64,000 nucleotides of DNA from Saprospiraceae bacterium (GTDB taxonomy: Bacteria; Bacteroidota; Bacteroidia; Chitinophagales; Saprospiraceae), in NCBI GenBank assembly GCA_020629035.1, contig JAHDEC010000011.1:1-64000 (forward strand), read 5' to 3'. The notes beneath the pieces were generated by a model that had not been told where the DNA came from, did not search any database, and saw only the letters and a program-made list of their open reading frames with translations. Position numbers and translations under genes: made by a program. Within the stretch, counting starts at the first letter, position 1. Each line of letters opens with the position of its first letter. Of the stretch, positions 22,323-30,639 are shown piece after piece.

Positions 22323-23891
22323 ATGGACTTTATTATATCAGACTTTCAGATAAATCAGGCATTGCTAAGATTGAGAAAATCATTATACAATAGTATTTGG
22401 ATTCTAACATTTATTAGTATTCAATACTCATCTTTTGCTCAAAACAAAAGTGACTATATATGGCTTGGGGGAGTAAACAATGCCTCCTCAAGCGGTATTG
22501 AAGGGTTTATGTTGGATTTTAACGACAATAAAGTAGATGTCAAACCTGTTAATTCAGCGCTACAATTTGATATGAATAATGTTTCCATGTGTGATGAAGA
22601 AGGAAATCTATTATTCTATTCTAATGGTTGTGCCATTGCTAATGCAAATCATGAAATTATGGAGAATGGAGAAGGCATCAATGCAGGTGATTTTTTTGAT
22701 ATTCTATGGCTAGGTAATTGCGATTATGGCTATCCAGGTTATCAAGATATATTATCTATCAAAAATCCAAATGTTCCAAACTCTTACTTTGTAATAACAA
22801 CTCCAGTTACATTAGATATTGGCAATGGTGACACATATAAATATATTATTCAATACTCTGAAGTTGATATAGATCTGAATGATGGCCTTGGTGCTGTGAC
22901 AATAAAGAATGAAGTTATTAAAGCTGGAGTAGAGATTTTAGTTGGTTACATGACTGCTATTGGCACAAGTGACGATTCATACTGGATACTAAATGTTACG
23001 ACAAACCCTATCAGTTTTATTAAAACCAAAATTGATAGTAGCGGTATTTATTTTCATGATCAACAATTTATTGGAATCAACTTAGACGAAGATTATGCCA
23101 GTGCATCTGGGACCGCTGCTTTTTCACCGCAAGGTGATAAATATGCCATATTTAACAAATATGACCAACTCCATATTTTTGATTTTGACACAGAAACTGG
23201 CTTATTAAGTAACCATAATTTAATAGATGTATCAACGGACGATAATATATTTTCAAGTATTGAATTTTCATCAAATGGAAGATTTTTATATGTTTCAACC
23301 CAACTTTCTGTCTATCAAGTTGATCTTTATCCATCATCTGGTAACTATGAAATAGAGCTAATAGACGAATTTAATGGAGTTCAAAATCCTCAAAATGCTA
23401 ATATGTTTCTTTTACGAAGAGGCCCTGATTGCAGGATTTATATAGCAGCCTCTGGTGCATCTGATTCATATGGTATAATAAACTACCCAAATCGAAAAGG
23501 AAAAGACTGTGAGCTTGTACAACAAGGAATAGACCTCCCATATATCACTGGAGTAGTTTCTTTACCAAATTTCCCTAATTATAGAATTAATGAAGAAGCA
23601 GTTTGTGACTCTACTATTGTAGGAGTCTATTCAGCAGTTGAAGAGTTAAAACAACAGTTTATGGTCTACCCAAATCCTGCTCTTGACTATGTTAATATAT
23701 TATTGCCTGAGTATAATTTAAATGGAAGGGTAGAGATTCACAATAATTATGGACAACTTATCTCAAAAGAGTTTATTTCAGGATACGAAATGAGCCTGGA
23801 TGTGAGCGGATTAGAGTCAGGTTATTATTACGTAACAGTTATCTCAGATAACAAAAGATTAAAATCAGAGCCCTTAATAATTATTGAGTAG
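22323..23891 (+). CDS. Secreted propeller protein with T9SS sorting tail
   Basis: A 522-residue exported protein. A long N-terminus (about 40 residues) contains a signal helix (SIWILTFISIQYSSFAQ). The body has blade-like repeats with the phrases NVSMCDEEGNLLFYSNG, AAFSPQGDKYAIFN and IEFSSNGRFLYVST. This is the pattern of a Saprospiraceae secreted WD40/lactonase-like family that reports 'RGPDCRIYIA' near the end of the propeller. The last ~75 residues (VYPNPALDYVNILLP ... SGLESGYYYVTV) are a T9SS type A tail. A TTG immediately before the ATG is not needed. Surface location is well supported; no enzymatic function is visible. Confidence 0.82.
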   Translation: MDFIISDFQINQALLRLRKSLYNSIWILTFISIQYSSFAQNKSDYIWLGGVNNASSSGIEGFMLDFNDNKVDVKPVNSALQFDMNNVSMCDEEGNLLFYSNGCAIANANHEIMENGEGINAGDFFDILWLGNCDYGYPGYQDILSIKNPNVPNSYFVITTPVTLDIGNGDTYKYIIQYSEVDIDLNDGLGAVTIKNEVIKAGVEILVGYMTAIGTSDDSYWILNVTTNPISFIKTKIDSSGIYFHDQQFIGINLDEDYASASGTAAFSPQGDKYAIFNKYDQLHIFDFDTETGLLSNHNLIDVSTDDNIFSSIEFSSNGRFLYVSTQLSVYQVDLYPSSGNYEIELIDEFNGVQNPQNANMFLLRRGPDCRIYIAASGASDSYGIINYPNRKGKDCELVQQGIDLPYITGVVSLPNFPNYRINEEAVCDSTIVGVYSAVEELKQQFMVYPNPALDYVNILLPEYNLNGRVEIHNNYGQLISKEFISGYEMSLDVSGLESGYYYVTVISDNKRLKSEPLIIIE

Positions 23892-24010: not shown

Positions 24011-24097
24011 TGGTGCCTTAGAAAGGAATCGAACCTTCACGCCCATACGGACACATGGCCCTCAACCATGCCTGTCTACCAGTTCCAGCACTAAGGC
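24011..24097 (-). tRNA. tRNA-Leu(GAG)
   Basis: The cloverleaf can be folded by hand. The acceptor stem is GCCTTAG/CTAAGGC and the D-arm is CTG...CAG with the loop GAACTGGTAGA. The anticodon stem CATGG/CCATG encloses the loop TTGAGGG (anticodon GAG). There is a long class II variable arm (GTCC/GGGC type), a T-arm GAAGG-TTCGATT-CCTTT, discriminator A and an encoded CCA at 24013-24011. The long variable arm and GAG anticodon identify a leucine tRNA reading CUC/CUU. It is divergent from the trp operon, has its own -7 box upstream and an intrinsic terminator downstream. Confidence 0.95.
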
Positions 24098-24115: not shown

Positions 24116-24162
24116 TTATCTTTTTGCAGAATTTCACTAAAGTCTACATACCTTTACTTTTG

Positions 24163-24222
24163 ATGACAATATTGACAAATACAAACAATTGGTGGCTTCT
24201 TTATAAACTACATAAAGATTAG
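24163..24222 (+). CDS. trpL: trp operon leader peptide
   Basis: A 19-residue open frame from ATG at 24163 to TAG at 24220-24222 encodes MTILTNTNNWWLLYKLHKD. Its two tandem tryptophan codons (TGG TGG, 24190-24195) are the sensing element of ribosome-mediated attenuation. A ribosome stalled on them when charged tRNA-Trp is scarce leaves the downstream GATTAGT free. A ribosome reaching the stop codon covers it. The leader lies between the divergent tRNA-Leu promoter and the attenuator of trpE. A TAnnTTTG-like sequence (TACTTTTG, 24155-24162) abuts the ATG. If it were the true -7 box, transcription would begin inside the peptide, so the real start of transcription is unresolved. Confidence 0.82.
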   Translation: MTILTNTNNWWLLYKLHKD

Positions 24223-24287
24223 TCCTACTATTTGTATCTAAGAAACCATATATATAGCGAGTAACTAATCAGTTGCTCGCTTTTTTT
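24217..24287 (+). promoter_or_regulatory. trp attenuator (antiterminator / intrinsic terminator)
   Basis: Terminator: AGCGAGTAACT (24256-24266), loop AATC, AGTTGCTCGCT (24271-24281), an 11-bp stem with one G-U pair, then a run of Ts to 24287. Antiterminator: GATTAGT (24217-24223), which includes the leader stop codon, is the exact reverse complement of ACTAATC (24264-24270), the top of the terminator stem plus its loop. The two structures exclude each other, as a transcription attenuator requires. The T-run ends against the trpE ATG at 24288. Confidence 0.88.
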
Positions 24288-25700
24288 ATGACTATGAAAC
24301 AACATAAATTACATATAATCACTAAAAAGCTACCGGGCGATATCCACACACCCGTAAGCCTTTATCTTAAGTTGCGAGACCATTATCCTAAAAGTGTGCT
24401 TCTGGAAAGTAACAACTTTTCGAATGTCCGAGAGTGTCATTCGATTATAGGTGTAGATCCAATAGCTAGCATCCAATTGCGCAAGCACACATTGACTTTT
24501 CAATACCTAAATGAGATACACAACATTGAACTAAACAAGCCACTAGAACTATCAGAAAATATCCAGCGGATTAGCCAATGTTTACGCTTGGAAAATGAAG
24601 TGAATGACTCGGCATTTATCGGCTTCCTAGGCCACATAAACTTCGAAATAGTCGATTATTTTGATAAAGTGGAAATGCAGAAATCGGACGAATTCGATAT
24701 GCCCGCGCTGCAATATTATTTCTATCGGTATGTGATAAGCTTTAACCATTTTGAGGACTCGATGCTCATTACAGAGAGTATTCCTGAAGGACAGCATTCT
24801 CAAATGAGCTCATTGCTAACTGCCTTTAAAAAACCTGTCCAATCACAGCCATCGTTTAGTCTGTCAGGTAAGGAGCAAGCGAATATGACAGATGTAGATT
24901 TTAAAGGATTGGTTACCAAAGGCAAGGCTTCTTGCCAAGTAGGAGATGTATTTCAGATCGTCTATTCCCGGAGGTTTGGTCAGTCGTTTGTGGGTGATGA
25001 CTTCGAGGTGTATCGTTCGCTGAGAAGCGTAAACCCTTCTCCTTATCTTTTCTACTTTGATTTTGGCAATTATACCATTATGGGCTCATCGCCAGAAAGC
25101 CAATTAATCATCGATAAAAACCAGGCGATTGTACATCCTATTGCGGGAACGTTTAAACGCTCAGGTAATGATGGTTTAGATAAGCAAATGGCGCAAATGT
25201 TGCTGGATGATCCCAAAGAAAATGCAGAACATACCATGCTCGTAGATTTAGCCAGAAATGACCTCGGAAGGCAAGGAAAAAACGTGCAGGTAACAGAACT
25301 TAAAAAGATAAAATATTACAGTCATGTAATCCACATGGTATCCGAAGTAACAGCCCAAGTGGATCCTCAGGTAAATACATTTAAAATGCTAGGTGATACT
25401 TTTCCAGCAGGAACTTTGTCTGGTGCACCTAAAATTAAGGCTCTTGAACTAATCAATGAAAATGAGCCAACTAATCGCTATAGTTATGGCGGAGGCCTTG
25501 GGTTCTTAAAGCTTGATGGCAGTCTTAATCATGCCATTATCATCCGATCATTTTTATCCACGGGTAATACCCTATACTATCAAGCCGGTGCAGGAATTAC
25601 CATCCATAGCGATGAAGAAAAAGAACTTCAAGAAGTAAATAATAAATTAGCGGCATTGAGAAAAGCCATCACCATAACCACTGAAAGGACACGCATATGA
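24288..25700 (+). CDS. trpE: Anthranilate synthase component I
   Basis: The 470-residue chorismate-using subunit converts chorismate and ammonia (from TrpG) to anthranilate, the first step to tryptophan. Visible family motifs are the N-terminal LLES tryptophan-binding motif, which predicts feedback inhibition, then GSSPES, HPIAGTFKRSG, AEHTMLVDLARNDLGR, YSHVIHMVSEV and FPAGTLSGAPK. The ATG at 24288 directly follows the attenuator T-run; a second ATG at 24294 is an alternative. The frame can be extended to a TTG at 24273, but that lies inside the terminator stem and is not credible. It overlaps trpG by four bases (ATGA). Confidence 0.97.
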   Translation: MTMKQHKLHIITKKLPGDIHTPVSLYLKLRDHYPKSVLLESNNFSNVRECHSIIGVDPIASIQLRKHTLTFQYLNEIHNIELNKPLELSENIQRISQCLRLENEVNDSAFIGFLGHINFEIVDYFDKVEMQKSDEFDMPALQYYFYRYVISFNHFEDSMLITESIPEGQHSQMSSLLTAFKKPVQSQPSFSLSGKEQANMTDVDFKGLVTKGKASCQVGDVFQIVYSRRFGQSFVGDDFEVYRSLRSVNPSPYLFYFDFGNYTIMGSSPESQLIIDKNQAIVHPIAGTFKRSGNDGLDKQMAQMLLDDPKENAEHTMLVDLARNDLGRQGKNVQVTELKKIKYYSHVIHMVSEVTAQVDPQVNTFKMLGDTFPAGTLSGAPKIKALELINENEPTNRYSYGGGLGFLKLDGSLNHAIIIRSFLSTGNTLYYQAGAGITIHSDEEKELQEVNNKLAALRKAITITTERTRI

Positions 25701-26272
25701 AACTATTATTAGTAGATAATTACGATTCGTTTACTTACAACTTAGTGCAGTATTTAGAGGAGTTAGGGGCCAATGTTACGGTCGTTCGTAACGACGAATT
25801 AGCCATGGATTCACTGGATCAATATCAGGGAATTATCCTTTCGCCAGGTCCAGGCTTGCCAAAAAATGCAGGCCAATTAATGGAGCTCATTGACCGATAT
25901 CATAGCCGCATTCCCATCTTAGGGGTTTGTTTAGGTCATCAAGCCATTAGTGAGTATTTTGGCGCAACATTGAACAATCTAAATCAAGTTTATCATGGCA
26001 TAGCTTCTGAACTGAAAAAGGTAGATCGAACAGACGCCCTATATATGGATATCGAAGGTGAAATAGCCGTTGGAAGGTATCATTCTTGGGAGGCAAAAAA
26101 AGAAGATTTTCCCGAGGAATTAATTCCCACGGCAATGACAGCAGATGATTGTATTATGTCATTTAGACACAAGAATTTACCTGTTTTTGGTGTTCAATAT
26201 CATCCTGAATCTATCTTGACTCCTCAAGGTAAAGCGATACTAAATAACTTTCTAAAGGTCGTAAAATCATAA
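25697..26272 (+). CDS. trpG: Anthranilate synthase component II (glutamine amidotransferase)
   Basis: This 191-residue class I glutamine amidotransferase feeds ammonia to TrpE. The catalytic triad is visible: Cys78 in GVCLGHQ, and His169 and Glu171 in QYHPES. LSPGPGLP, the conserved oxyanion-side motif, is at about 49-56. It is a separate protein here, not fused to TrpE or TrpD. In some bacteria the same subunit also serves PabB for folate synthesis; no pabB is in the window. ATGA overlap with trpE and a four-base gap to trpD mark it as an operon member. Confidence 0.97.
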   Translation: MKLLLVDNYDSFTYNLVQYLEELGANVTVVRNDELAMDSLDQYQGIILSPGPGLPKNAGQLMELIDRYHSRIPILGVCLGHQAISEYFGATLNNLNQVYHGIASELKKVDRTDALYMDIEGEIAVGRYHSWEAKKEDFPEELIPTAMTADDCIMSFRHKNLPVFGVQYHPESILTPQGKAILNNFLKVVKS

Positions 26273-26276
26273 GTCA

Positions 26277-27278
26277 ATGAGAGCAGCATTAGAACGATTA
26301 TCGAACTACGAGAACCTGACTCGAAAAGAGAGTCATGGGCTTATGCAAACCATAATTAATGGTGAGACATCAGATGCTCAAATTGTGGCATTGATGATGG
26401 CTTATCGGATGCGATTTCCTTCGGCTCAAGAAATATTGGGTTTTCGTGATGCGCTTATGGAAGTCTGCATAAAACCCAACTTAGATGCAAACAATGCGAT
26501 AGATATTGTGGGTACAGGTGGTGATGGAAAAAATACATTTAATATCTCCACTGCAAGCTGTTTTGTAGTGGCAGGTGCGGGCTATCGAGTCATAAAGCAC
26601 GGTAATTATGGTTCGTCTTCAATTTCAGGTTCGTCAAATACTTTACAAAGTTTAGGCTATCAATTTAGTCACGAAACCGATAATCTACAACGACAATTAG
26701 ATGCTTCCAATGTCTGTTTTTTGCATGCGCCAATGTTTCATCCAGCCCTAAAAGCAGTTGCAGACTCGAGAAAGTCATTTGGTCTGAGAAGTTTTTTTAA
26801 TCTACTGGGTCCACTTATGAATCCTGTCGAACCAAAATTTCAATTGTTTGGAACTTCTTCCATGGAGATTAGTCGATTGTATACTGATATTATGATGCAA
26901 ACGCCACGTACTTTTTGCATTGTTCATGCTTTAGATGGTTATGATGAAGTGTCTTTAACGGAGGCTGTCCATATCCAGCGTAATCATACAAAATCAGTCT
27001 ATGAACCTAGGCATTTTGGTTCAGATTATGTTAGGGCAGAAGATATCTCAGGAGGCGCAAATCCAGCCAAAGCACAGGCTATTTTTTTAGAAGTTTTACA
27101 GGCTAAAGGTACTAAGGAACAGCAAGAGGTTGTCCTTGCAAATGCAGCATTGGCCATACAAATGATGGATCCGACAAACTTAACTTTATTAGATGCTAAA
27201 CAAAAGGGCTTAGAGGCTATACTAAATGGAAAAGCCTATGATTGTTTCCAAGCTTTTGTAAAAGCTTCAAACCATTAA
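26277..27278 (+). CDS. trpD: Anthranilate phosphoribosyltransferase
   Basis: A 333-residue enzyme that transfers phosphoribose from PRPP to anthranilate. The glycine-rich PRPP site IVGTGGDGKNTFNIST lies at about 78-92, followed by VIKHGNYGSSSISGSSNTLQSLG, which corresponds to the family's H-G-N...S-S...G-S-A-D motif. Here the usual alanine-aspartate is serine-asparagine, a mild deviation. The second half has RSFFNLLGPLMNP and HALDGYDEVSLT. Length is normal for the family. It starts four bases after trpG and ends one base before trpCF. Confidence 0.96.
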   Translation: MRAALERLSNYENLTRKESHGLMQTIINGETSDAQIVALMMAYRMRFPSAQEILGFRDALMEVCIKPNLDANNAIDIVGTGGDGKNTFNISTASCFVVAGAGYRVIKHGNYGSSSISGSSNTLQSLGYQFSHETDNLQRQLDASNVCFLHAPMFHPALKAVADSRKSFGLRSFFNLLGPLMNPVEPKFQLFGTSSMEISRLYTDIMMQTPRTFCIVHALDGYDEVSLTEAVHIQRNHTKSVYEPRHFGSDYVRAEDISGGANPAKAQAIFLEVLQAKGTKEQQEVVLANAALAIQMMDPTNLTLLDAKQKGLEAILNGKAYDCFQAFVKASNH

Positions 27279-27279
27279 T

Positions 27280-28701
27280 ATGCAGATTTTAGACATCATC
27301 ATCCATCATAAAAAAGAAGAGCTCATACAGGCTAAATTGGCTAAGCCATTGGAAGCGCTTAAACAGTCAAGCTATTATAGCAGAACGTGCTTAAGCCTAT
27401 CCAAATTTATCAAAGATGAAGACAAAAATGGGATTATAGCTGAGTACAAACGCAAGTCTCCAAGTGAAGGTATAATCAATGATCAGTATACGATAGAAGA
27501 GGTAGTGAAAGCCTACCAAGCTCATGGAGCTTCTGCCTGTTCGATCCTTACTGACCATGAATTTTTTGGAGGCAAAGCAGAATGGATTACGGAAATAAGA
27601 CCATTGTTAAATATTCCAATTTTAAGAAAAGAATTCATCATTGACGAATACCAAATCCATGAAGCTAAAGCAATAGGGGCTGATGCCATTTTACTCATTT
27701 GCGAGTGCTTAAGCAAAGAACAAATTAGCCAGTTTTGCCGATTAGCTCATGACTTGGGATTGGAAGTTTTACTTGAGTTGCATAGCGAAGACCAATTGTA
27801 CAAAGTGGACACTGACGTAGATTTAATAGGAGTAAACAATCGGAATTTAAGCACCTTTAAGGTGAGCTTACAATTTTCGAGAAACTTAATAGAACATTTA
27901 CCTAAAAACTGTGTAAAAATATCAGAGAGCGGAATTAAAAAACCATCCGACATCACCGAGCTCCGATCGATTGGATATGACGGTTTTTTAATCGGAACAC
28001 AGTTTATGAAATCAGCAAGCCCAATGGAATCTTTTGCTTCATTTAGCTCACAGATTCCTGAAAAAAACAAGGCTAAAAGCAAATCATTACATGAGCTTGC
28101 CATCAAGGTTTGTGGTATGATGGAAGCAAGCAATATAAGGGAGTTAGAAGCTTTAGATATTGATTATATAGGGCATATTTTTTACGATAAATCGCCTAGG
28201 TTTGCAAATGCTTTATACTTAGAAGAGGGTAGGCCTAAAGTAGGCGTGTTTGTAGACGAGATGTATCATGAAATTAAAGCTAGAGCTGTCCAAGAAAACT
28301 TGAGCATTATTCAGTTACATGGAGCTGAGTCTCCGATAATTTGCGAGCAATTGAAAGAGGAGGGCTTTAAAGTCTGGAAAGTTTTTGGCATAGATGATGA
28401 CTTTGATTTTAATGTTGTAAAACCTTATCTAGATAAAGTTGATGCTTTTTTATTTGACACAAAAACTAGGCAGCATGGTGGCAGTGGAAGAAGCTTTAAC
28501 TGGTCTAAACTATATGAATATACCGAAACCACTCCTTTCTTTTTGAGTGGTGGCATTGGTCCATCATCTATCGATGATTTGCGATTATTTAAGCATCCTC
28601 ATTGGATAGGTATAGATATTAACAGCCAGTTTGAAACAGCACCAGGAATAAAAGATATTGAATTAATAAAAACATTTATTGAGGCATGCAAGGAAGCGTA
28701 A
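27280..28701 (+). CDS. trpCF: Bifunctional indole-3-glycerol-phosphate synthase / phosphoribosylanthranilate isomerase
   Basis: One 473-residue chain carries both enzymes. Residues ~1-260 are IGP synthase (IIAEYKRKSPSEG, LRKEFIIDEYQI, VLLELHSED, VNNRNL, ISESGI). Residues ~272-473 are PRA isomerase with catalytic Cys278 in IKVCGM and Asp in LFDTKT, plus HIFYDKSPRF, IQLHGAES, HGGSGRSFNW and LSGGIGP. PRAI (TrpF) makes CdRP, which IGPS (TrpC) closes to indole-3-glycerol phosphate. Both active sites look intact, so the fusion should be fully functional. The same order (C then F) is known from enteric bacteria; in many Bacteroidota the two genes are separate. It overlaps trpB by 16 bases. Confidence 0.95.
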   Translation: MQILDIIIHHKKEELIQAKLAKPLEALKQSSYYSRTCLSLSKFIKDEDKNGIIAEYKRKSPSEGIINDQYTIEEVVKAYQAHGASACSILTDHEFFGGKAEWITEIRPLLNIPILRKEFIIDEYQIHEAKAIGADAILLICECLSKEQISQFCRLAHDLGLEVLLELHSEDQLYKVDTDVDLIGVNNRNLSTFKVSLQFSRNLIEHLPKNCVKISESGIKKPSDITELRSIGYDGFLIGTQFMKSASPMESFASFSSQIPEKNKAKSKSLHELAIKVCGMMEASNIRELEALDIDYIGHIFYDKSPRFANALYLEEGRPKVGVFVDEMYHEIKARAVQENLSIIQLHGAESPIICEQLKEEGFKVWKVFGIDDDFDFNVVKPYLDKVDAFLFDTKTRQHGGSGRSFNWSKLYEYTETTPFFLSGGIGPSSIDDLRLFKHPHWIGIDINSQFETAPGIKDIELIKTFIEACKEA

Positions 28702-29882
28702 AATATACTTATCCAGCAGATGGATTTTATGGTCCTTTTGGAGGAGCATTTATCCCAGAATTACTTCAGCCTTGCGTCGAAGAATTGCGTTCGCAATATC
28801 TGAGCATTATGGCTGAGCCATCTTTTTTGCACCAGTTCGAAGCTCTGCTAAAAGATTATGTGGGCCGTCCGACACCACTGTATTATGCCCATCGATTATC
28901 GAAGCATTATCAGAGTCATATTTATCTAAAACGAGAAGATTTGTGTCATACAGGAGCACATAAAGTAAATAATACTATAGGCCAAATTTTAGTAGCTCAG
29001 CGTTTAGGTAAACAGCGAATTATAGCAGAGACTGGGGCAGGCCAACATGGAGTGGCAACCGCTACGGTTTGTGCATTGATGGGATTAGAATGTATCGTTT
29101 ATATGGGTGAGAAAGACATAGTCAGGCAAGCACCCAATGTACAGCGAATGAAAATGCTTGGAGCTGAAGTGAGACCTGCAAGTTCAGGGTCAAAAACATT
29201 AAAAGATGCCACGAATGAAGCTATTCGGGATTGGATTAACAATCCTAGTGACACACACTATATTATTGGATCAGTGGTGGGCCCACATCCTTATCCAGAT
29301 ATGGTGAGTCGATTTCAGTCGGTCATCAGTCAAGAAATTTTGTGGCAATTAAAGGAAAAAACGGGCAATGAAAATCCGACCAGAATCATCGCATGTGTGG
29401 GTGGTGGTAGTAATGCGGCTGGCGCCTATTTTCATTACTTAGAACGCGAATCCGTGGAATTAATTAGTGTGGAAGCTGGAGGAATGGGTGTACATTCTGG
29501 TAAAACAGCAGCGACTAGTCAGATAGGAACTCAAGGTGTTATACATGGAAGCATGACTTTGTTAATGCAAACCAAAGATGGGCAGATTGTGGAACCGCAT
29601 TCCATTTCAGCAGGACTAGATTATCCTGGCATAGGGCCGATGCATGCTCATCTTATCCAATCCAAGCGGGCAAAGGTGGTAGCGATAGAAGATGATCACG
29701 CAGTAAAAGCAGCCTTTTTAATGGCGAAGTTGGAGGGCATTATTCCAGCCTTAGAGTCTAGTCATGCACTTGCTGCATTGGACGAACTTGAACTAAAGCC
29801 GAATGATATAAATGTTATTAATCTATCGGGTAGGGGAGATAAAGATTTAAACACTTTTATGAATCACACTAGGCATGAATAG
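28686..29882 (+). CDS. trpB: Tryptophan synthase beta chain
   Basis: A 398-residue PLP enzyme that joins indole and serine. The N-terminal motif FYGPFGGAFIPE, the PLP lysine K93 in HTGAHKVNN, the glutamate-bearing AETGAGQHGVA and the phosphate-binding CVGGGSNAAG loop are all present, as are the C-terminal ALESSHALA and NLSGRGDKD. This is the standard TrpB1 type that pairs with TrpA. It starts inside the end of trpCF (16 bases) and overlaps trpA by eight, consistent with translational coupling and one-to-one subunit production. Confidence 0.97.
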   Translation: MQGSVKYTYPADGFYGPFGGAFIPELLQPCVEELRSQYLSIMAEPSFLHQFEALLKDYVGRPTPLYYAHRLSKHYQSHIYLKREDLCHTGAHKVNNTIGQILVAQRLGKQRIIAETGAGQHGVATATVCALMGLECIVYMGEKDIVRQAPNVQRMKMLGAEVRPASSGSKTLKDATNEAIRDWINNPSDTHYIIGSVVGPHPYPDMVSRFQSVISQEILWQLKEKTGNENPTRIIACVGGGSNAAGAYFHYLERESVELISVEAGGMGVHSGKTAATSQIGTQGVIHGSMTLLMQTKDGQIVEPHSISAGLDYPGIGPMHAHLIQSKRAKVVAIEDDHAVKAAFLMAKLEGIIPALESSHALAALDELELKPNDINVINLSGRGDKDLNTFMNHTRHE

Positions 29883-30639
29883 ACTGCAACAATTATTTAA
29901 TCGAAAGGCAGGAAACATCTTAAATATTTATGTGACTGCTGGTTATCCCGGGTTACATGATACGGAATCTGTAGTCTTATCCTTGGCTGAGGCAGGTGTG
30001 GATATTATCGAGTTAGGTATTCCGTATTCGGATCCTTTAGCTGATGGAGAGACCATTCAAGCTAGTTCACAACAAGCCTTAGCTAATGGAATGGGCTTAT
30101 CCTTATTATTTAAGCAAGTGGCAAGGATCCGATTAAAGTCTCAAATTCCGATAGTTCTGATGGGTTATTTTAATCAAATGCTTCAGTATGGAATTCCAGC
30201 TTTTATTCAGCATTGCGAGACATCAGGTGTAGACGGTCTGATTATACCGGATTTACCTATAGAGATTTATCAGCGAGATTATGCTCATTTATTTGGAGCT
30301 TCGACCTTGAGTTTAAGTTTCTTAATAACACCACAAACACCTGAGGCTAGAATCCGTAAAATGGACGAGGCCAGTAATGGATTTATTTATATGGTTTCTG
30401 TCAATGCCACCACGGGTACAGAAACTAAAGTAAGTACCGAATACTTTGAACGCATTAAAGGAATGGGTTTAAAAAATCCAAGGCTTATTGGTTTTGGAAT
30501 AAAGGATTCAGCTGGATATAATCAGGCTTGTAGTTATGCAGATGGTGCGATTATAGGGAGTGCTTTTATAAAGTTTATAGCTTCAGAAGGGATAGGTAAA
30601 GTGAAGGATTTTGTGGGTGGTATTCGAGGCTTGGAATAA
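29875..30639 (+). CDS. trpA: Tryptophan synthase alpha chain
   Basis: A 254-residue TIM barrel that splits indole-3-glycerol phosphate and channels indole to TrpB. The catalytic Glu46 and Asp57 sit in IIELGIPYSDPLADG; further motifs are VLMGYFNQML, DGLIIPDLP and FIYMVSVNATTGT. The phosphate-binding end is GFGIKDS and GAIIGSAF. Last gene of the operon. No clear hairpin plus T-run follows within the next 100 bases, so the transcript end is not defined by sequence. Confidence 0.97.
   Translation: MNRLQQLFNRKAGNILNIYVTAGYPGLHDTESVVLSLAEAGVDIIELGIPYSDPLADGETIQASSQQALANGMGLSLLFKQVARIRLKSQIPIVLMGYFNQMLQYGIPAFIQHCETSGVDGLIIPDLPIEIYQRDYAHLFGASTLSLSFLITPQTPEARIRKMDEASNGFIYMVSVNATTGTETKVSTEYFERIKGMGLKNPRLIGFGIKDSAGYNQACSYADGAIIGSAFIKFIASEGIGKVKDFVGGIRGLE

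Follow-up and report, generated by a model that had tools for sequence, protein, structure and literature searches.

Upstream of the tryptophan biosynthesis genes of a Saprospiraceae bacterium lies a short open reading frame (ORF) with two adjacent Trp codons and, behind it, a terminator that reaches almost to trpE. The question raised by this locus is whether the leader governs the operon through attenuation by a translating ribosome, and how such a device would relate to the trp leaders already described. The window analyzed in this work, i.e., the whole stretch of DNA, comprises 64,000 nucleotides. The element is very probably a ribosome-mediated transcription attenuator of the trp operon, in a divergent form of the Bacteroid-trp leader.

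Leader and trp Operon in the Window

An earlier note, made from the sequence alone, had proposed leader-peptide attenuation at this locus. Rereading of the sequence confirmed every coordinate it gave for the attenuator (leader, Trp codons, antiterminator, and terminator): the tandem Trp codons, the exact complementarity of GATTAGT and ACTAATC, the terminator, and the T-run up to the ATG at 24288 all hold. The parts of the leader and the genes of the operon are the following.

24163-24222, plus strand: leader ORF MTILTNTNNWWLLYKLHKD (ATG at 24163, 19 codons, stop codon TAG at 24220-24222)
24179-24185, plus strand: 5' strand of the outer stem, ATACAAA (MFE pairing with 24231-24237)
24190-24195, plus strand: tandem Trp codons TGG TGG, the sensor (read in the sequence; tandem Trp codons also in relatives)
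24190-24227, plus strand: 1:2 protector hairpin (MFE; Trp codons and CTTCTTTAT paired with ATAAAGA/AGTCCTA)
24217-24223, plus strand: strand 2, the antiterminator strand GATTAGT (overlaps the leader stop codon; the homologous strand covaries in relatives)
24231-24237, plus strand: 3' strand of the outer stem, TTTGTAT (MFE)
24256-24281, with T-run (U-run) to 24287, plus strand: intrinsic terminator AGCGAGTAACT-aatc-AGTTGCTCGCT (11-bp stem, loop AATC)
24264-24270, plus strand: strand 3, ACTAATC (exact complement of GATTAGT 24217-24223; top of the terminator 5' arm plus loop)
24288-25700, plus strand: trpE (Pfam PF00425 and PF04715; start probably at 24294)
25697-26272, plus strand: trpG, glutamine amidotransferase (PF00117; trpG_papA above cut-off)
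26277-27278, plus strand: trpD (PF00591 and PF02885; named from operon context)
27280-28701, plus strand: trpC-trpF fusion (PF00218 and PF00697)
28686-29882, plus strand: trpB (PF00291; named from operon context)
29875-30639, plus strand: trpA (PF00290)

The start of trpE is probably the ATG at 24294 rather than the ATG at 24288, because congener L003 has TTG at the position of the latter. Upstream of the leader, a plus-strand ORF ends at 23891, and a tRNA-Leu gene (gag; 24011-24097, minus strand) is divergent from the trp operon, with a terminator-like hairpin (24011-23976) beside it; congeners L003 and L004 likewise have a minus-strand tRNA 5' of trpE. In the window genome (G000), which was searched for other leaders, the trp operon is complete and no HisG or IlvD family match was found, so that the organism is possibly auxotrophic for His and branched-chain amino acids, unless the assembly (96% complete) misses HisG and IlvD.

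A terminator scan over 521 bases returned two sites on the two strands together, against 0.2 expected, the attenuator site having 11 pairs. The 138-nt region folds with -31.6 kcal/mol (z = -4.55; none of 200 shuffles equally stable); the terminator accounts for most of this stability, the part 5' of it reaching only z = -1.1. In the MFE structure the protector hairpin 24190-24227 holds the antiterminator strand and is nested within the outer stem 24179-24185/24231-24237, which contradicts the earlier description of a leader with no separate pause hairpin. Nor does the design appear unusually compact, as had been suggested, since folding of the window and of most relatives gives a long 1:2 hairpin in which the antiterminator strand is held. 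Strand 2 of the window was paired upstream with a mean probability of 0.60. The 7-bp antiterminator match of the window is reached by 2% of letter shuffles and is therefore not self-proving; it is the relatives that make the match convincing.

Conservation of the Leader in Relatives

Of 199 family genomes, 154 gave a TrpE match (E ≤ 1e-60), and the regions upstream of trpE were read in 90 of these; the nearest named relatives are Saprospiraceae, the closest being 85% in TrpE. The comparison with relatives that the earlier note had advised bore out the tandem Trp codons, a WW or WWW leader plus a terminator being present upstream of trpE in 84 of the 90 family regions. The script that looked for a WW leader and a terminator gave 85 hits out of 90, of which L054 was false; L033 was counted as true, the script having chosen another ORF there and the true leader having been identified. 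Analyses with 83 rows leave out L054 and L033, and L002 (a second chorismate-binding gene) is out of all counts. No WW leader with terminator occurred in the region read upstream of trpE in L041 and L082, and in L009 and L054 the family model R1 (see below) matched farther upstream of trpE than the region read, at 474 and 739 nt, respectively. Alternating Trp/Arg leaders MNLFITWRWRFSSSKG (TWRWRF) replace the tandem Trp codons upstream of trpE in L076 and L077.

Among 80 named records, which were the best of 120 and overlap the family set, 77 also had a leader with adjacent or alternate Trp codons followed by a terminator; the misses were L237 (134 bases available), L251, and L283. Outside the family, where counts refer to trpE genes found with the window TrpE and not to every genome (such a TrpE was present in 30 of the 99 genomes sampled from the order), a Trp leader and terminator occurred at 34 of 48 order and class loci, four of the misses having less than 160 bases upstream, at 22 of 24 further class loci, and at 13 of 31 loci from other classes of the phylum, picked from 96 such genomes with TrpE. 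L106, L190, and L198 were excluded as hits outside the family, their leader or terminator being doubtful.

This recurrence bears on whether the terminator merely ends an upstream transcript, the WW leader being coincidental. The minus-strand tRNA-Leu (24011-24097) and the plus-strand ORF ending at 23891 do lie upstream, the tRNA side having its own terminator-like hairpin, but leader and terminator recur together 5' of trpE in the two overlapping sets (84/90 family regions and 77/80 named records), with covariation, which makes such an origin hardly credible.

Measured from the first Trp codon, the start of the antiterminator strand lies 23-30 nt downstream in 71 of 84 relatives' rows. Overlap of this strand with the leader stop codon is seen in 30 of 84 rows, and the distance between the two is at most 12 nt in 79 of 84. 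The position of the antiterminator over the stop codon, as pointed out in the earlier note, is thus found in the window but does not extend to a general rule. With this spacing, a ribosome stalled at the Trp codons would in most rows not extend, under the assumed footprint, as far as strand 2, whereas one at the stop codon would.

The gap between terminator and trpE (last paired base to trpE match) was 1-9 nt in L091, L001, L003, and L004 and 13-388 nt in the remaining 79 of 83 relatives. In the window and both congeners the terminator U-run ends 0-6 nt 5' of the trpE start; a terminator touching trpE sets the window's genus and a single further relative apart from the rest. A hairpin so placed might act mainly on translation, blocking initiation at trpE until the leader ribosome relieves the block. 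In the window's genus the end of the U-run indeed falls within a ribosome footprint of the trpE start, so that refolded read-through RNA would hide the start and some translational effect is possible. The U-run together with the gaps of 13-388 nt in 79 of 83 relatives points, however, to termination as the conserved function, and a mainly translational action is unlikely; in the window's genus a translational effect could exist as an addition to termination.

Several other leaders were noted in the relatives. Two Trp leaders in series, MKRNNLNTMNIWWLSI and MHSFKVQSWQWWLYRNR, precede trpE in L313 (G096:C384:3286-3547), and a separate terminator-like hairpin follows each of them. At L158 (G091:C64:20096-20209) a second Trp leader (NNWCWWHLF) with a terminator precedes a trpG-like ORF, in a genome that also has one 5' of trpE. 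L310 (G014:C192:57439-57547) is a short ORF away from trpE that ends in KTWWWFG and has a short hairpin behind it. L308 (G049:C30:13838-13963) resembles the Trp leaders but carries four His codons, MNFNKTFHHHHFGFLQSSW, with a terminator where the contig ends, and is perhaps a his attenuator with the same layout.

Test for Covariation in the Antiterminator and the Protector

The strand 2/3 pairs of relatives differ in sequence (TCGGGTGA/TCACCCGG, TCGGATGA/TCATCCGA, TAGGAATT/AATTCCTA, and GTCAGGTAT/ATACCTGAC). Covariation was counted in the alignment A2, a favorable subset of 29 family sequences, selected from the 90 because their layout is regular; the window's genus was left out because MAFFT places strand 2 of the window about six columns off. 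With a plain MAFFT alignment, RNAalifold recovered nothing but the terminator; for A2, structures were therefore drawn up manually and then counted.

In these 29 sequences, 95.3% of the antiterminator cells were paired, in contrast with 30-51% in slid controls. Changes on both sides were found in 18 cells (2.6 in shuffles) and in four of eight pairs (0.7 in shuffles), and none of 500 shuffles reached the covariation score of the antiterminator; further pair types in A2 were not above shuffles (92 of 500 as high). The structure made up of protector and terminator was paired in 83.3% of cells, with 40 two-sided cells vs. 17.4 in shuffles, but most of this support is carried by the terminator (97.6% paired), the protector helices being paired in only 67-72% of cells. 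The compensatory changes that the earlier note had called for were found in the antiterminator; covariation gives the protector weak support. Over the family, the antiterminator match had a shuffle P < 0.01 in 18 of 85 rows and P < 0.05 in 44 of 85. Chance pairing of strands 2 and 3 was rejected on the covariation in the 29 relatives.

Folding According to the Position of the Ribosome

Ribosome masks assumed a footprint extending about 15 nt to each side of the P site. When the RNA ended at strand 3, the probability of the antiterminator in the window was 0.01 without ribosome, 0.98 with a ribosome stalled at the Trp codons, and 0.00 with a ribosome at the stop codon, the median values for relatives being 0.06, 0.95, and 0.00, respectively. 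Congener L003 gave 0.05, 0.97, and 0.00 for the same states, and L004 gave 0.95, 0.97, and 0.00, its protector not being predicted to hold; the antiterminator already wins without ribosome in 30 of 83 relatives, L004 among them. The stalled state gave an antiterminator probability above 0.5 in a fraction of 0.89 of the 83 relatives, as compared with 0.25 of 415 shuffled controls, and the whole switch pattern was seen in 38 of 83 relatives vs. 44 of 415 shuffled controls. The leader 5' of the terminator was below its shuffle mean in all 83 relatives (mean z = -2.4; 49 of 83 below -2), and strand 2 was bound upstream with a probability above 0.5 in 66 of 83 leaders. Support for the protector thus comes from energy, that from covariation being weak.

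In the full-length RNA at equilibrium the terminator forms even with a stalled ribosome (0.98 in the window), and the family median of terminator probability was 0.99 in all three states. Since the 7-bp antiterminator is far weaker than the terminator, which wins in the full RNA, the switch must be kinetic, and timing would have to decide.

The locus shares four features with trp attenuators in general: a Trp-codon ORF lies 5' of the trp genes, a terminator stands between the leader ORF and the first gene, antiterminator and terminator are mutually exclusive, and, by energy, a 1:2 protector hides the antiterminator strand, with an exception predicted in congener L004. The proposed sequence of events is as follows. 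Without ribosome, the hairpin 24179-24237 would hold strand 2 (24217-24223) and the terminator would form. With ample Trp-tRNA, the ribosome would reach the stop codon and cover strand 2, and the terminator would form as well. With scarce Trp-tRNA, the ribosome would stall at 24190-24195, open the protector hairpin, and free strand 2, which would pair with strand 3 (24264-24270) before the 3' arm of the terminator is made; RNA polymerase would then read through into trpEGDC/FBA.

Ribosome-mediated attenuation is well supported by the anatomy, the conservation, the covariation of the antiterminator in relatives, and the computed state-dependent folding; the relatives and the folding strongly support, in particular, the earlier proposal of a leader peptide with a strand that can be covered by the ribosome at the stop codon. 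From these data we infer stalling, coupling, termination, the start site, and strand 2/3 pairing winning in time. A structured leader 5' of trp genes could also belong to a riboswitch that binds a ligand or to a target of an RNA-binding protein, tryptophan then being sensed without the ribosome. Other Rfam leader hits in the window were all far below cut-off and neither favor nor exclude this; however, a short ORF with tandem Trp codons and a stop codon close to the switching strand recurs while the surroundings diverge, and sensing of this kind is very improbable.

Comparison With Known trp Leaders

The leader trpL of Escherichia coli has tandem Trp codons, a 1:2 protector, a 2:3 antiterminator, a 3:4 terminator, and a stop codon near strand 2. 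The window shares this layout (tandem Trp codons, protector, antiterminator, terminator, and stop codon near strand 2) and differs in its 7-bp antiterminator, in a terminator that abuts trpE, and in belonging to a phylum without Shine-Dalgarno sequences. With the enterobacterial Trp_leader model of Rfam, nothing in the window matched up to E = 10, and RF04312 (trpB) was rejected as the identity of the element, with 21.9 bits vs. a cut-off of 59.

The Bacteroid-trp motif is listed in Table 1 of Weinberg et al. (2010) with "y" for cis-regulation (PMC2864571), and is held in Rfam as RF01692, "Bacteroidete tryptophan peptide leader RNA." The element is not an isolated case outside enterobacteria but a form of a Bacteroidetes device already in Rfam. 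Nevertheless, RF01692 did not match the window up to E = 10 (gathering cut-off 49 bits), its whole genome up to E = 1 with stricter filters, or congeners L003 and L004 up to E = 1. None of 15 scanned family loci was above cut-off, as compared with three of 20 class and phylum loci (L148, L175, and L185). In 100 family genomes, 42 matched at E ≤ 1 and only one (L306) was above cut-off, 41 of the 49 rows at E ≤ 1 being located within 700 nt upstream of trpE; among 14 control genomes only a Bacteroides matched.

The RF01692 consensus covers the start of the leader and an outer stem of the AAUAC/GUAU type, places the Trp codons within a long hairpin, and includes the first arm of the terminator. 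The window shares with it the position at trp genes in Bacteroidetes, the Trp codons in a long hairpin, and the terminator arm; its outer stem (24179-24185/24231-24237) resembles the AAUAC/GUAU stem, and weakly matching family members link the two. The element most likely descends from a Bacteroid-trp leader and has diverged beyond what the model recognizes; it works like such a leader and fails the formal score test.

The family model R1 was built from A2 and matched 160 of 199 family genomes at E ≤ 0.01, a count that includes the 29 training sequences and plain terminators and is not a prevalence. Among 20 inspected R1 matches away from a listed trpE, 16 looked like ordinary gene ends and four like Trp leaders (L156, L157, L158, and L170). 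The window scores 15.5 bits with R1 and was missed in the genome search with this model; R1 does match its congeners, G109 at 2.4e-5 and G188 at 2.6e-4.

In Flavobacterium psychrophilum, of the same phylum as the window, strong clues of leader peptide attenuation have likewise been described 5' of amino acid biosynthesis operons (PMC9723704); a term search of the main text of that paper finds no mention of tryptophan or trpE. Trans roles have been reported for the RNA and the peptide of Sinorhizobium meliloti trpL (PMC7298713), which is alphaproteobacterial, and the transcript start of the window is only predicted. In full-text searches of one open-licence library, no experimental trp attenuator from Bacteroidetes was found among the papers listed.

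Predicted Promoter and Start of the Transcript

In the phylum, -7 boxes of the form TAnnTTTG are described at -12 to -5 (PMC9723704) and TTTG around -33 (PMC7366714). The candidate promoter elements of the window are the following.

24121-24126, plus strand: possible -33 element TTTTTG (22 nt before the -7 box; also in congener L003)
24149-24156, plus strand: likely -7 box TACCTTTA (five of six consensus letters; same box in L003)

From TACCTTTA, the trp transcript of the window is likely to start at 24161, 2 nt 5' of the leader ATG. The box TACTTTTG at 24155-24162, which the earlier note had named and which is the only exact consensus box in the window, was discarded as the -7 box in favor of TACCTTTA: a transcript from it would start at 24167, past the ATG, and it reads TACTAAAG in L003. 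A rule that admits exact boxes only accordingly gives no prediction for the window. Congener L003 keeps the TACCTTTA box, with a predicted 5' leader of 2 nt, and L004 uses a TACTTTTG box 5 nt before its ATG, with a predicted 5' leader of 1 nt.

With exact boxes only, 44 of 83 family leaders gave a value, in a two-peaked distribution (0-1 nt in 10, 12-23 nt in 30, and other lengths in four); in the control, 1600 shuffles of the 40 bases 5' of the ATG gave 35 boxes, two of them at 0-1 nt. For the named loci L242-L305, mostly Flavobacteriaceae, predicted 5' leaders were 1-6 nt in 55 of 62 and 12-16 nt in seven of 62, and 1240 shuffles of these gave six boxes at 1-6 nt. As background, 5.5% of mRNAs in F. 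psychrophilum are leaderless (PMC9723704), and 3.7% of those in B. thetaiotaomicron have 5' leaders shorter than 10 nt (PMC7366714). These box positions suggest, as a serious but tentative possibility, that the trp leader of the phylum is often translated from a near-leaderless message starting 0-6 nt 5' of the leader ATG. If so, the first ribosome would load as the RNA emerges, and attenuation would work without Shine-Dalgarno initiation. Since Shine-Dalgarno sequences are described as lacking in the phylum (PMC9723704), the missing room for one before trpE is no obstacle.

Significance

The attenuator is well supported and belongs to a kind already known, in a divergent form that Rfam does not recognize. 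The analysis extends the Bacteroid-trp type to a family mostly missed by the Rfam model and names its working parts, i.e., the antiterminator strand, its protector, and the required position of the ribosome. Control of this type requires that a ribosome follow the polymerase closely; that it recurs through the class therefore provides comparative evidence of early coupling between transcription and translation, in a phylum described as being without Shine-Dalgarno sequences. The main new hint, read from predicted boxes, is that the trp message may start almost at the first codon of the leader.
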